Positions 16,692 through 47,281 of a DNA stretch of 64,000 bases are shown here, one piece after another. The position numbers were made by a program, and so were the translations under genes. Positions within the stretch are counted from its first letter, which is position 1. Each line of letters begins with the position of its first letter. The stretch is taken from NCBI GenBank assembly GCA_021787595.1, contig JAJYLQ010000001.1:124001-188000 (forward strand), written 5' to 3'. This stretch comes from Chloroflexota bacterium (GTDB taxonomy: Bacteria > Chloroflexota > Anaerolineae > Anaerolineales > Villigracilaceae). The notes under the pieces are model-generated. The model had not been told where the DNA came from. It was given only the letters and a program-made list of their open reading frames with translations, and made no database searches.

Positions 16692-16808
16692 TGTCATTCT
16701 GAGTGGCACTCCCGCACACGCGGGGGCGCCACGAAGAATCTCAAATTTTGATGGAAAACTGGCTTGAAAAGCGAGATTCTTCGCTCCCTGCGGTCGCTCA
16801 GAATGACA
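16692..16808. repeat. Inverted-repeat element (TGTCATTCTGAG ends)
   Basis: The 117-bp segment has perfect 12-bp terminal arms (TGTCATTCTGAG at 16692-16703, CTCAGAATGACA at 16797-16808) and perfect inner arms GAAGAATCTC / GAGATTCTTC. It can fold into one long hairpin and contains no ORF. It resembles widespread MITE/REP-like intergenic elements. It fills most of the gap 16575-16843. Confidence 0.8.
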
Positions 16809-33333: not shown

Positions 33334-33366
33334 GAAAGATGAAAGAAGAAAGAGGAGTCTGCAATC

Positions 33367-33840
33367 ATGAAGTACGCCGAATGGCTCGAGAGCGTTCCTT
33401 GTGAAATCACCAATGATCCAATTTGGAAACTTGAAGTATATCGGCTTGCTTTGTTTGCTGATGACATCGGATGGGAAGATGTTCTGAAATTATCGAAGGA
33501 AAAACTTATGTTCAGTATTGCTGACCAACTCCATCGCTCGCTCGGCTCAATCAGTGCGAATCTGACCGAAGGATATTCGCGAAGCAAGGGCCTCGACCGC
33601 GCTCGCTTTATTGAAATCTCGCTTGGGTCAGCGCGGGAAAGCCGAGACTGGTACTACAAGGCCCGTCATGTTTTATCTGTTGAAGTCATTCAACATAGAA
33701 TGAACTTGATTACCCAAATTATCAGCATGTTAGTTCCTATGATTTCTCATCAGCGAAAGAATGCCATCCGCGAAGAACAGGCTGAATACAACACACAATT
33801 ATCAGACTTCTCGCTTGACGTAGAAATCCCAATGCTTTAA
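33367..33840 (+). CDS. Four-helix-bundle (23S rRNA intervening-sequence, IVP) protein
   Basis: 157 residues with the IVP signature SANLTEGYSRSKGLDRARFIEISLGSARESRDWY. Such proteins form pentameric helix bundles and often lie in insertions; their activity is unclear. It sits between the carboxylase subunits and is bordered by AAGATGAAAG-type sequences on both sides in inverted orientation, so it looks like a gene that moved into the operon. Confidence 0.85.
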   Translation: MKYAEWLESVPCEITNDPIWKLEVYRLALFADDIGWEDVLKLSKEKLMFSIADQLHRSLGSISANLTEGYSRSKGLDRARFIEISLGSARESRDWYYKARHVLSVEVIQHRMNLITQIISMLVPMISHQRKNAIREEQAEYNTQLSDFSLDVEIPML

Positions 33841-33900
33841 CTTTCTTTCCTCTTTCATCTTTCTTTGTGTATCAATACCAATCTCTAAAGGAAATCTTTC

Positions 33901-35994: not shown

Positions 35995-36470
35995 TGAAAA
36001 CGACTTTTGATGAAAACGCCATTGACTTAACTCCAAGCGGCAAAGGTTATATCGCGACCATTGGAGATAAAACTGTTTCGGTTGAAATCGTCCACGCGGA
36101 AAACGGAAAATTGGATTTGTTGATTGACGGCAATCATGTCATTGCTTATGTTTCATCCGACGGTGCGAAGCGCTGGGCGACGATCAATGGTCAAACTTTT
36201 TTGTTGACCAGATCGTCCGGGACGAGACGAAGCGGCGCGGGCGGCGAGCACGCGTCCGAATTGGCCGCGCCGATGCCGGGTCAGGTACGAAGCGTCAATG
36301 TCAGCGAAGGCGAGGCAGTCAGCAAAGGTCAAACCCTTTTGGTGCTGGAGGCCATGAAAATGGAAATCCGCATTCAAGCGCCGAGGGATGGAGTGGTGAA
36401 AGAACTATTGGTCAAGGTTGGGCAGACCGTAGAGCGAGAACAAATTTTGGTGAAGATGGATCATGGTTAA
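35994..36470 (+). CDS. Biotin carrier (biotinyl-lipoyl domain) subunit
   Basis: 158 residues. The C-terminal 75 residues are a biotinyl domain with the biotinylated lysine in LEAMKMEI; residues 1-70 resemble the BT linker domain of MCC alpha subunits that docks to the carboxyltransferase. Translationally coupled to the biotin carboxylase gene. The final codons and stop (MDHG) are made from the left arm of the inverted repeat at 36463-36540. Confidence 0.92.
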   Translation: MKTTFDENAIDLTPSGKGYIATIGDKTVSVEIVHAENGKLDLLIDGNHVIAYVSSDGAKRWATINGQTFLLTRSSGTRRSGAGGEHASELAAPMPGQVRSVNVSEGEAVSKGQTLLVLEAMKMEIRIQAPRDGVVKELLVKVGQTVEREQILVKMDHG

Positions 36471-36540
36471 TGGATCATGGTTGATGGATCAGGGTTTGTG
36501 GAAATGGTCAAGCCGCGATCAACCATGAACCATTAACCAT
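36463..36540. repeat. Near-perfect 22-bp inverted repeat over a stop codon
   Basis: Left arm 36463-36484 (starting ATGGTTAATGG) and right arm 36519-36540 (ending CCATTAACCAT) pair with a single mismatch. The left arm contains the stop codon of the biotin carrier gene. Each arm is itself a tandem ATGGTT(A/G)ATGG-like word. Confidence 0.85.
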
Positions 36541-36555
36541 CTCCGAAGGAGAATT

Positions 36556-37023
36556 ATGACAGGCAAATATTTTGACGAGCTCGAAGTCGGGATGAAGTTC
36601 AAGCACGGCGGGCGCACCGTGACCGAGATGGATAATGTGCTGTTCTCGGCGCTGACGATGAATACGCAGCCGCTGCACGTCAACGAAGACTTTGCATCGA
36701 AGACCGAATTTGGTCATCGCCTGGTGAACGGCGTGTTTACGTTTGGGCTGGTCGTCGGCTTGACCGTCCCCGATCTGACCGAAGGCACGATTGTGGCGAA
36801 TCTCGGATACGATAAAGTCGTGCATCCGCATCCCGTCTTTCACGGCGACACGATTTACGCCGAGAGCGAGATCATCGAGAAGCGCGAGTCAAAGTCGAGG
36901 CCCGAAGTCGGCATCGTGCGAATCAAATGCTGGGGCAAGAAACCCGACGGTACAATTGTGGTGGAGTTCGAACGAACGGCGATGTTCTTCAAGCGTTCGC
37001 ATGTTGGCAAGTCGGAAGGTTAG
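36556..37023 (+). CDS. MaoC-family acyl-CoA hydratase
   Basis: 155 residues with one hot-dog domain: MKFKHGGRTVTEMDNVLFSALTMNTQPLHVNEDFA holds the D/N...H hydratase motif, followed by GHRLVNGVFTFGLVVGL. Together with the carboxylase and the next gene's lyase it could hydrate an enoyl-CoA (methylglutaconyl-, mesaconyl- or itaconyl-CoA type). GAAGGAGA precedes the start. Stop codon lies in the inverted repeat at 37009-37057. Confidence 0.88.
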   Translation: MTGKYFDELEVGMKFKHGGRTVTEMDNVLFSALTMNTQPLHVNEDFASKTEFGHRLVNGVFTFGLVVGLTVPDLTEGTIVANLGYDKVVHPHPVFHGDTIYAESEIIEKRESKSRPEVGIVRIKCWGKKPDGTIVVEFERTAMFFKRSHVGKSEG

Positions 37024-37057
37024 CACGTTAACTTTCCAACTTTAAACCTTCCAACTT
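37009..37057. repeat. 13-bp inverted repeat over a stop codon
   Basis: AAGTCGGAAGGTT (37009-37021) and AACCTTCCAACTT (37045-37057) pair with one mismatch. The left arm encodes the last codons of the MaoC gene. Confidence 0.75.
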
Positions 37058-37072
37058 TCAAACGGAGAGATC

Positions 37073-37954
37073 ATGCACTCACGACGCGCACTTTTATACA
37101 TGCCCGGCGATGACTGGAAGAAGATCACCAAGTCCATCACGCTTGGCGTGGACTCGATCTGCATGGACATGGAAGACGGCGTAGCCATCACTCACAAATC
37201 CGAGGCGCGCGCCGCGATTGCAAAAGCTTTGCGGGAATTGGATTTCGGTAAGTCAGAAAAACTGGCACGCATCAATCCGGTCGGATCGGGATTTGAGAAG
37301 GAAGATATCGAAGCTGTCCTGCCATTTCATCCTGATGGGATTGTGATTCCAAAACTCGAAGAGCCAAAACAAATTCAATGGGCGAGCGAGATCATCGAAG
37401 CCGCGGAGTTGAGATACGGCTGGCCGGTCCATTCGATTCGGATCCTGGTGATCGTCGAAACCGCAAAAGGAATTTTGAACCTGAAGGAAATTGCATCGCA
37501 TCCGCGCCTGGACGCGATCATCTTCGGCGGCGAGGACTACGCGGCGTCGGTCGGCGCGACGCGCACGAAAGACGCGGTCGAACTGCTTTACGCGCGCGAG
37601 GCCGTTATCGCCGCGTGCGCGGCGTTTGGATTGCAAGCCATTGATATCGTTGCGATTGATTTCAAAGACCTCGAAGCGTTGAGAAAGGAATCCGAGTTCG
37701 GCGCGCAGTTGGGATTCACCGGCAAGCAGATCATCCATCCCGCGCAGGTCGAGCCGGTACAAGCCGCGTTCACGCCAAGCGACGAAGCCATCGCCCATGC
37801 CAAACGAATCGTCGAAACATTCGAAGCCAGTCAAAAAGAGGGCAAAGGCGCGTATGCGTTGGACGGCAGGATGATTGACATGCCGTTATTGAAGAACGCG
37901 CAAAAAGTTTTGGAGCGCGCCAAAGCCGCGGGAAAGGCGGAACGCGGACTTTAG
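37073..37954 (+). CDS. HpcH/HpaI-type CoA ester lyase (CitE-like)
   Basis: 293 residues. RALLYMPGDDWKKI, CMDMEDGV, VIVETAKGIL and IIFGGEDYAASVGA are CitE/malyl-CoA lyase motifs with the Mg-binding Glu/Asp; FTGKQIIHPAQVEPV is the C-terminal hallmark. It cleaves a 3-hydroxyacyl-CoA to acetyl-CoA or similar plus an oxoacid (malyl-CoA, citramalyl-CoA or related). With the MaoC and carboxylase genes it suggests one catabolic route. The last codons and TAG fall in a REP palindrome. Confidence 0.9.
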   Translation: MHSRRALLYMPGDDWKKITKSITLGVDSICMDMEDGVAITHKSEARAAIAKALRELDFGKSEKLARINPVGSGFEKEDIEAVLPFHPDGIVIPKLEEPKQIQWASEIIEAAELRYGWPVHSIRILVIVETAKGILNLKEIASHPRLDAIIFGGEDYAASVGATRTKDAVELLYAREAVIAACAAFGLQAIDIVAIDFKDLEALRKESEFGAQLGFTGKQIIHPAQVEPVQAAFTPSDEAIAHAKRIVETFEASQKEGKGAYALDGRMIDMPLLKNAQKVLERAKAAGKAERGL

Positions 37955-38101
37955 TCCGCAAAAAGTGCAATCAGCGGAGTGAGGCAAGCGGACTGAAGTC
38001 CGCAATCCAGAGTCCGCAATCCAGAGTCCGCAATCCAGAGTCCGCAATCCGGAGTCAGCAATTCGAAGTCAGCAATTCGAAGTCAGCAATTCGAAGTCTG
38101 C
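37944..38101. repeat. REP palindromes and a 14-bp tandem repeat upstream of the RAYT gene
   Basis: Palindromes GCGGACTTTAGTCCGC (37944-37959) and GCGGACTGAAGTCCGC (37988-38003) are followed by seven 14-bp units (AATCCAGAGTCCGC, three exact, then AATCCGGAGTCAGC, two AATTCGAAGTCAGC and one AATTCGAAGTCTGC; 38004-38101), changing stepwise towards the transposase gene. The ribosome-binding site AAGGAG follows immediately. Confidence 0.92.
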
Positions 38102-38117
38102 AGCTCAAGGAGAATGC

Positions 38118-38654
38118 ATGAAATGGTCAACGTCGCCGCACCGCCCGCCGCATCTCTATGCGGATGATGCCTGGTATTTCGTGACTGCCTCCACAGTCAA
38201 CCACGCGCATGTTTTATTCTCCAACGAACATCTCGATCTTTGGACAAAGGCGTTCAAGGAATTGGTTGCAGAATTCAAGGTCAAATTAATCGCGTGGGTG
38301 GCGCTCCCGAATCATCACCATTTCCTCTTCCTTCCCAGTCGCGGCCATGACCTTGCGAGTCTTATGAAGCGTCTCAACGGGCGGACATCGCACCAATTGA
38401 ATGTTCTTGATCAGGCGCGAGGGCGGACGGTTTGGTATAGTTATTGGGATACCTGCATCCGAGGCGAACGCGATTTCTGGACGCGTTTCAATTACATTCA
38501 CTATAATCCCGTCAAACATGGATACACACCGCAGCCGGGAGACTGGCGTTTCTCCAGTTACCATCATTATTTACACGATGATGGCGAGGGATGGTTGGAA
38601 AATTGCATCCAGGATTTTCCAATCTATGATTTGTTTGATGACGACAGGTTTTAA
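38118..38654 (+). CDS. REP-associated tyrosine transposase (RAYT)
   Basis: 178 residues of the IS200/IS605 Y1 family. The HUH-type motif appears as LPNHHHFLF near residue 55-65 and the catalytic Tyr region as RFNYIHYNPVKHGYTPQPGDWRFSSYH, the RAYT signature. RAYTs cut and join single-stranded REP hairpins and are usually domesticated single-copy genes. Bordered by REP palindromes at 37944-38003 and 38668-38712. AAGGAG lies 7 bp before ATG 38118. Confidence 0.93.
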   Translation: MKWSTSPHRPPHLYADDAWYFVTASTVNHAHVLFSNEHLDLWTKAFKELVAEFKVKLIAWVALPNHHHFLFLPSRGHDLASLMKRLNGRTSHQLNVLDQARGRTVWYSYWDTCIRGERDFWTRFNYIHYNPVKHGYTPQPGDWRFSSYHHYLHDDGEGWLENCIQDFPIYDLFDDDRF

Positions 38655-38667
38655 GAAGAAGTGGTGA

Positions 38668-38712
38668 GCGGACTTCATTCCGCCGCGCCGAGAAAGGCGG
38701 ACTGAAGTCCGC
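38668..38712. repeat. REP palindromes downstream of the RAYT gene
   Basis: GCGGACTTCATTCCGC (38668-38683, imperfect) and GCGGACTGAAGTCCGC (38697-38712, identical to the upstream copy), followed by further AATCCGAGTC-like words up to 38730. Confidence 0.9.
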
Positions 38713-39949: not shown

Positions 39950-40018
39950 AGTAGACGAGTACACAGGTAAAGTGAGACTTGTCTACTTGTTTACCTGCAC
40001 ACTTGCATACTTGTCTGC
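39950..40018. repeat. Imperfect inverted repeat after the EamA gene
   Basis: Words such as AGTAGACGAGTACACAGGTAAA and, in reverse sense, TTTACCTGCACACTTG make up two imperfect arms. No coding sequence. The rest of the gap to 40181 holds the short ORF at 40046-40120. Confidence 0.6.
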
Positions 40019-42887: not shown

Positions 42888-42940
42888 ATCTGCGAACCAT
42901 TCACAGTCAATTCATATTCAAAATATATAACTCAATTATC

Positions 42941-43032
42941 GCCCTGAGCGGAACGTAGAGAAGTCGAAGGGCGAATCGAAAGCGGCAACGCTTCGACTTC
43001 GTGACGCATCTAGCGTCACTCCGCTCAGCGAG
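42941..43032. repeat. Hairpin element between marR and exporter genes
   Basis: CTGAGCGGAACG... and CGCTTCGACTTC...CCGCTCAG arms fold on each other, and an inner stem GTGACGC-ATCTA-GCGTCAC (43001-43019) is perfect. Resembles widespread CCCTGAGCG/GTCGAAGGG elements. Its place in an operon could alter the exporter message. Confidence 0.75.
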
Positions 43033-43073
43033 ATGATAGATATTTACTATTACCTACTATCGAAAGGATATCC

Positions 43074-47220: not shown

Positions 47221-47281
47221 AGGACACAAAGGAGCACGAAGGTTAAATCTTTTCCTTTGTGTCACGTTGTGTCCTTTGTGG
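47221..47281. repeat. Imperfect inverted repeat upstream of gyrA
   Basis: GACACAAAGGA (47223-47233) pairs with TCCTTTGTGTC (47253-47263), and a second direct copy of TCCTTTGTG lies at 47272-47280. It sits in the leader of gyrA. Confidence 0.7.

Follow-up and report, generated by a model that had tools for sequence, protein, structure and literature searches.

Genes and hairpins of the window

The window that we analysed is a stretch of 64,000 nt (G000:C41:124001-188000) in an Anaerolineales genome of 4.08 Mb, and the relatives with which it is compared are Villigracilaceae and Anaerolineales assemblies (Chloroflexota) found through the CitE gene. Immediately 3' of a carboxylase stop codon, on the forward strand like the window's other genes and word arrays described below, stands a heptad array (GAAAGATGAAAGAAGAAAGAGG, 33334-33355). 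It is followed by a gene for a 157-aa four-helix-bundle protein (33367-33840) and by a second array (CTTTCTTTCCTCTTTCATCTTTC, 33841-33865), in which 33841-33863 is the inverted partner of the first (score 18); together these form a complete element. The protein matches Pfam PF05635 (23S_rRNA_IVP; E 3.2e-14, 53.5 bits against a curated cut-off of 33.8) and NCBIfam TIGR02436 (E 2.6e-17, 63 against 24). A sequence-only reading of the window had treated 33334-33362 and 33841-33865 as the repeat of one gap; they occupy two gaps, which flank this gene.

The main hairpin (36463-36485/36518-36540) is, as that reading claimed, a 23-nt inverted repeat of 96%, with a 32-nt loop and an RNA folding z of -5.2. 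Its left arm, built on the word ATGGTTA, contains the biotin carrier stop codon (36470), and its right arm (ATCAACCATGAACCATTAACCAT) stops just 5' of the Shine-Dalgarno sequence and is missing where the relatives' genes abut or overlap. A PF05635 gene of the genus mate G002 is bracketed by this word. A second solo hairpin, claimed at 37009-37057, is real, with arms measured as 37003-37021 and 37045-37063; the left arm (word AAGTTGG/AAGGTTG) continues into the MaoC stop codon (37023), and its partner lies in the array AACTTTCC-AACCTTCC (37030-37063). The hairpin claimed at 47221-47281 was likewise recovered, by inverted-repeat search and RNA folding, at 47221-47275, and consists of GACACAAAGGA/TCCTTTGTGTC words of the kind that brackets GxxExxY genes. 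At 39950-40018 an ACTTGT-type array is present (words ACAGGTA/TACTTGT), but the hairpin claimed there is weak (z = -2.1). Two more supposed word hairpins, judged against recurrent families, are members of dispersed families: 16692-16808 is of the type TGTCATTCTGAG...GAAGAATCTC, and 42941-43032 belongs to a CCCTGAGCGGA copy that the inverted-repeat search places at 42932-43040. No Rfam RNA family was matched in the window.

The window also holds a REP/RAYT unit. REP-like palindromes GCGGACTTTAGTCCGC/GCGGACTGAAGTCCGC (37944-38003) surround the CitE stop codon (37954), which lies in the first of them; a 14-nt tandem array (GAAGTCCGCAATCC, 37995-38102) leads to a gene for a Y1 transposase (38118-38654; PF01797/NF047646, REP-associated tyrosine transposase), and a further REP palindrome lies 3' of it (38668-38712). 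The end of the upstream gene therefore does fall within the left arm in the three cases that had been named, biotin carrier, MaoC and CitE. As a general statement, that such repeats often include the stop codon found no support: arrays cover it no more than their length predicts (86 against 102 expected under uniform placement). Enriched are arrays that begin at the stop codon (-2 to +5), 55 against 23.

Inverted repeats and heptad arrays are in excess in intergenic gaps

In a sample of 1.98 of the 4.08 Mb, with 1782 genes, we compared the best ungapped inverted repeat of each gap with dinucleotide shuffles; genes were called by a simple hexamer caller, which misplaced some start codons, that of CitE among them. 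Among 840 co-directional gaps, 287 scored at least 10 where 16 were expected, and 168 scored at least 12 where 1 was expected, which bears out the suggestion that real gaps exceed shuffled ones. The excess was also seen in convergent and divergent gaps and was smallest in the latter. Intergenic tandem units of 7 nt, as in heptameric simple repeats of the STRR/LSSR type, are in excess as well: exact 6-mer repeats at lags of 7, 14 and 21 numbered 341, 467 and 162 in gaps, compared with 35, 40 and 28 after shuffling and 55, 40 and 69 in coding sequence. Arrays of 7-9 nt units occurred in 118 gaps of this sampled half genome, 97 of them co-directional. An inverted partner with a score of at least 9 was found in 37 of 187 array gaps (5 expected), and many arrays are direct only.

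The hairpins fall into several classes, namely intrinsic terminators, dispersed families (including TGTCATTGCGAG...GAAGCAATCTC, GTAGGGGCACAGCG and ATTACAGCGCAAAGT), REPs beside the RAYT gene, and word hairpins of 7-9 nt units. The proposal of a single process was thus correct in seeing one architecture built from different words, but it had pooled dispersed families, the REP/RAYT pair and heptad-word arrays; the word arrays themselves belong to many families and not to one or two standard repeats. In the family GTAGGGGCACAGCG...CGCTGTGCCCCTAC, constant arms enclose a variable centre of about 30 nt in many gaps of the same genome (e.g. C21 54506, C63 57874).

An intrinsic terminator consists of a GC-rich stem and a following run of T. 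In two data sets together, 67 hairpins whose right arm is followed by a T run were excluded as terminators, and 77 word hairpins have no T run 3' of the right arm. Among solo word hairpins, 54 have the G-rich strand as their 5' arm, versus 15.

Such hairpins might have been selected as operon RNA devices, acting in processing, stability or translation coupling, with words free to vary so long as the arms pair. They fill the co-directional gap from stop to start and end before the ribosome site, and in 47 of the 77 the arm is separated from the start by an SD-like motif; their RNA folds are strong, and a translational role has been proposed for TAACTGA repeats (PMC4679880). Against this, G.U mismatches in word hairpins show no excess over A.C (48 vs 55), in a test that is weak because the intrinsic-terminator positive control shows no signal either. 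Furthermore, the junctions of many relatives have no gap, and the many arrays that are direct only have no self-pairing, which argues against RNA devices. We consider this origin quite improbable. Selection for stop codons, or against SD sequences and start codons, within arrays was also considered and set aside, the differences being small (stop codons: 404 sense, 369 antisense, 360 shuffled).

Words are shared among loci and turn over between relatives

To what extent is a word peculiar to its locus? We grouped 242 heptad arrays from 48 genomes into 42 word clusters and found 402 same-word pairs across loci versus 34 expected, so the words are not locus-specific, contrary to the sequence-only reading, and a few families dominate. 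A dozen or so degenerate word families recur over loci and species, frequent words including AAAGTGG, ACTGATC, AAAGAAG, AAAACGC, GTGTCAG, TATTCGA and AACCTTC. Each word is abundant in certain genomes but scarce or missing in others closely related to them: ACTGAT has 236 matches in G021 and 1 in G012, AACCTTC 220 in G063 but 5 in G012 of the same genus, GTGTCAG 104 in G007 but 0 in G130, again a genus mate, and AAAACG 88 in G019, most genomes having none (reversed-pattern controls for these counts are mostly zero, the weakest being that of AAAACG).

Copying of whole arrays between loci was rejected as a source of this sharing: same-word arrays at different loci share no unit order beyond chance, and so did not arise recently by copying from one another. 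A MITE or other dispersed repeat family was rejected as well, with 6 array pairs sharing at least 20 nt versus 5.5 after unit permutation.

A comparison of the same gaps in related strains had been proposed, to see how their arms change together. In orthologous-gap comparisons, which are not independent, are dominated by one junction and have a same-word null of 17%, the word was kept in 68 of 196 at 85-90% flank identity, with another word's array in 76, and in 39 of 91 at 90-100% flank identity, with another word's array in 28. At the MaoC-CitE junction the word differs between species. Loci L060 and L073, whose DNA is 90.4% identical, have CACAAAGG words in one and ATCAGTG in the other, and both arrays are placed between the stop codon and the ribosome site. 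Separately, L104 and L111 have an overall DNA identity of 93.7%, biotin carrier proteins that are only 74% identical, and different gap words; local allele exchange at the biotin carrier gene is likely in this pair.

PF05635 genes are bracketed by inverted word arrays

We screened the flanks of all 3521 genes, seeking inverted repeats that pair the 5' with the 3' side. A score of at least 13 was reached by 54 genes, and by 13 with swapped flanks; the screen recovers RAYT/REP pairs, a known pairing, and the genes with tandem words are mostly PF05635. Among 23 PF05635-like genes identified by HMM, 19 scored at least 13 versus 3.4 with swapped flanks, and 35 of 3498 other genes did so (Fisher p ~1e-32). 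The HMM seeds came partly from flank hits, and 8 of 12 non-seed members also pass; many of the bracketed Anaerolineales genes are orthologs at a single junction and so not independent. The bracketing words are AAAGAAG, AAAGTGG, GTGTCAG (two paralogs), TAGTTCGA, TATTCGA, TATCGC, ACTGATC, AAAACGC, AAAGTGC and, in G002 as mentioned above, ATGGTTA. Since the same kinds of words thus bracket PF05635 genes in inverted orientation, the hairpins look like inserted elements.

Pfam assigned eight of ten proteins to PF05635 and two to PF13366, all over the cut-off, and a PF05635 protein matched the four-helix bundle of PDB 2GSC, the structure for the S23 gene of Xanthomonas campestris, at 1e-11. Homologs of the protein encoded at 33367-33840 are also bracketed in other genomes, by a word that varies with protein clade, and 20 of the 23 PF05635 genes point the same way as the genes on either side. 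The S23/IVP family (PF05635) has been described as without known function, and S23 has been reported to be a homopentamer (PMC4990558). No transposase or nuclease domain was found in the PF05635 proteins tested.

We obtained similar results with loci chosen by protein alone. Six of 12 plasmid PF05635 genes score at least 17, all of them cyanobacterial (Nostoc ATCC 53789 (pC), Calothrix NIES-22, Nostoc edaphicum, Picosynechococcus, Geminocystis and Anabaena 90). The other half have no strong inverted pair: two have upstream heptads and a short downstream match, a Pseudanabaena plasmid has direct arrays, Nostoc HK-01 has a downstream array on one side only, and two have no arrays. The window's own PF05635 protein gave no match among plasmids, and the search succeeded with another clade. 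Among IMG/VR viral contigs, 6 of 7 PF05635 loci score at least 20, with the words TATCGGC and AGTAGGG; the seventh match is partial, L274 and L275 are near-identical, and the swapped-flank nulls are high because five loci have one word in common. Some of the genes on cyanobacterial plasmids (L258, L260, L262) lie within CRISPR-Cas operons, in cas6/cas4 and cmr2/cmr3 intervals.

Word and protein clade agree in the tree. The AAAGAAG group is monophyletic (support 100/100), and the two GTGTCAG paralogs, which lie at different loci, group together (100/95), as do an AAAACG pair (98/88) and a GTCAGGA pair (100/99). Related PF05635 proteins carry related words, and in this the word resembles protein-specific terminal repeats. 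By coordinates, other genomes of the family also have word arrays, at unrelated loci, that are only tens of bases away from a PF05635 gene: GTGTCAG in G007, G361, G354 and G019, ACTGAT in G007, AAAACG in G364, and AACCTTC in G357 and G349. This adjacency carries the argument, because the whole-genome correlation is positive but unspecific to the matching clade. Over 60 family genomes, word count and matching clade give a Spearman coefficient of 0.51 for GTGTCAG (mismatched 0.41) and 0.40 for AAAACG (mismatched 0.40); for ACTGAT, over 13 genomes, it is 0.29 and not significant. G153 has 187 ACTGAT matches and no close matching protein, the matching protein of G019, with its 88 AAAACG matches, is only 36% identical, and several words (e.g. 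GACGGTG, AAAGGTC) have so far yielded no bracketed gene.

Neutral replication errors could in principle fill gaps with such repeats, through 7-nt slippage and quasi-palindrome template switching, leaving the PF05635 genes as unrelated passengers. The signal at lags of 7, 14 and 21 is strong and restricted to gaps, a few near-perfect arms (C13 92912, C33 58895 and 36463 of the window) resemble fold-back copies, and hairpins are known products of template switching (PMC8794818). Slippage alone, however, predicts neither the shared vocabulary (402 vs 34) nor the agreement of word with clade nor the bracketing of 19 of 23 genes, and unit order is in register (p<=0.05) in only 9 of 79 word hairpins, so little above the null that we did not accept the arm-register permutation test as proving that arms were copied by fold-back. 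As a full account this is rather unlikely. It is likely that slippage and template switching contribute to the length of arrays without being the whole cause.

Junctions are found both filled and empty

At the carboxylase junction many relatives have the cassette, and the gap is 2 nt in L047, L049, L052 and L071. At the biotin carrier/MaoC junction the 86-nt hairpin of the window is matched by an overlap of the genes in G002 and by about 0 nt in most others. The arrays might instead be preferred landing sites, into which PF05635 genes insert as cargo between inverted arrays already present. Arrays without a gene are far more numerous than those with one, and the same junctions are also used by other elements, as this would lead one to expect. 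Yet carboxylase-junction relatives that lack the PF05635 gene show 2 nt or another repeat family and no empty array, and the word tracks the protein clade at different loci too; we regard landing sites as very improbable. In L038, L077, L103 and L105 the carboxylase junction holds the TGTCATGCTGAG/TGTCATTGCGAG family, so one junction can house several element types.

A proposed class of small junction elements

The reading that we favour, with a probability of roughly 0.6, is that the heptad hairpins represent a class of small junction elements in which word arms and a PF05635 gene insert as a unit, the solo hairpins being gene-less relatives. The complete form would comprise an array of a 7-8 nt word, a PF05635 gene and the reverse-complement array, lying in host operon direction between one gene's stop and the next start, with the gene in the loop of a long RNA hairpin as in known 23S rRNA intervening sequences. 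Transcription and cutting by RNase III would be expected by analogy. Solo hairpins and bare arrays would stand to the complete form as REPs and REPINs do to RAYT genes. Units may be duplicated, lost and reshuffled within an array, so that the arms keep the word and not the exact order. Our inference is that the gene travels with its arms and that the protein works on its own word, either by spreading it or by synthesising units with a host polymerase or reverse transcriptase.

Several known systems resemble these elements. Like the 23S rRNA intervening sequences (IVS) of Coxiella and Leptospira, they have inverted repeats enclosing an S23/IVP ORF, that is, a PF05635-type gene in sense orientation within a hairpin loop, and they are sporadically present; for the IVS a former mobile element has been suggested (PMC4990558). 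In Coxiella the IVS is a terminal-inverted-repeat hairpin with an S23 ORF preceded by heptamers (GACAGAT) whose number varies by strain (PMC4990558). Unlike the IVS, which occupy helix 9, 25 or 45 of 23S rRNA, the elements described here lie at protein-gene junctions genome-wide, that of the window between protein-coding genes, and come with many words and many gene-less hairpins. The REP/REPIN and RAYT system (PMC3116915), of which the window has a pair at 38118-38712, has the same layout of a gene bracketed by its own repeats with many gene-less copies dispersed. A RAYT, however, is a Y1 (HUH) transposase, as is the protein of 38118-38654, with a fairly fixed REP sequence (PMC3116915), whereas the PF05635 family consists of four-helix bundles that have no known catalytic activity, their genes standing between degenerate heptad arrays. 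The PF05635 element works like both systems and is a member of neither.

Heptameric repeats have been reported as TAACTGA in Beggiatoaceae, Cyanobacteria and Bacteroidetes (PMC4679880), and as GGGAATC in Xanthomonas, where each genome has 70-75 repeat-site pairs in inverted orientation, and GGGGA(C/T)T in Nostoc (PMC4692102). They share with ours the intergenic 7-nt units near start and stop codons, and TAACTGA is the ACTGATA word found here; they differ in that each paper deals with a single word and no associated gene, and neither main text mentions S23/IVP or a four-helix bundle. One word-bracketed protein of the ACTGATC clade matches Pfam bAvd (E 1.3e-12), a link to the Avd of diversity-generating retroelements by protein family only. 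Its closeness to bAvd hints that PF05635 may have an RNA-linked role.

A wider reading, held tentatively and at somewhat less than even odds, makes PF05635 the trans-acting half of a widespread element system. Each clade would have a 7-nt word of its own, which it recognises or makes in the form of RNA or DNA, and would spread word hairpins to junctions, with GxxExxY (PF13366) as a parallel system using 9-nt words. Heptameric repeats in unrelated bacteria have long been described, and we know of no cause given for them. If true, the wider reading would explain those of Cyanobacteria, Beggiatoaceae and Xanthomonas and give the S23/IVP family a role. The link of word to clade joins two puzzles, heptameric repeats and S23/IVP function, and makes both testable, the prediction being that each heptad family has a specific protein-word pair. 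It also suggests where many hairpins inside operons, which one might mistake for regulatory RNA, are likely to come from.

The genes for GxxExxY proteins (PF13366, PD-(D/E)XK fold) show a comparable arrangement. In sampled Anaerolineales DNA, 3 of 3 of these genes have longer-period words on both sides (e.g. CACAAAGGGCACGAAG), one of them weakly; among plasmid genes the pattern is clear in Bacteroides and Bernardetia and partial or absent in others. Sequences of the CTTTGTGTCCTTCGTGG type, which are common, may belong with GxxExxY genes. Inverted words of the 9-nt type, CACAGAGGACGCAGAGG and CACAAAGG, bracket the GxxExxY genes at L080 1035, G4~L247 15382, L266 and L268.
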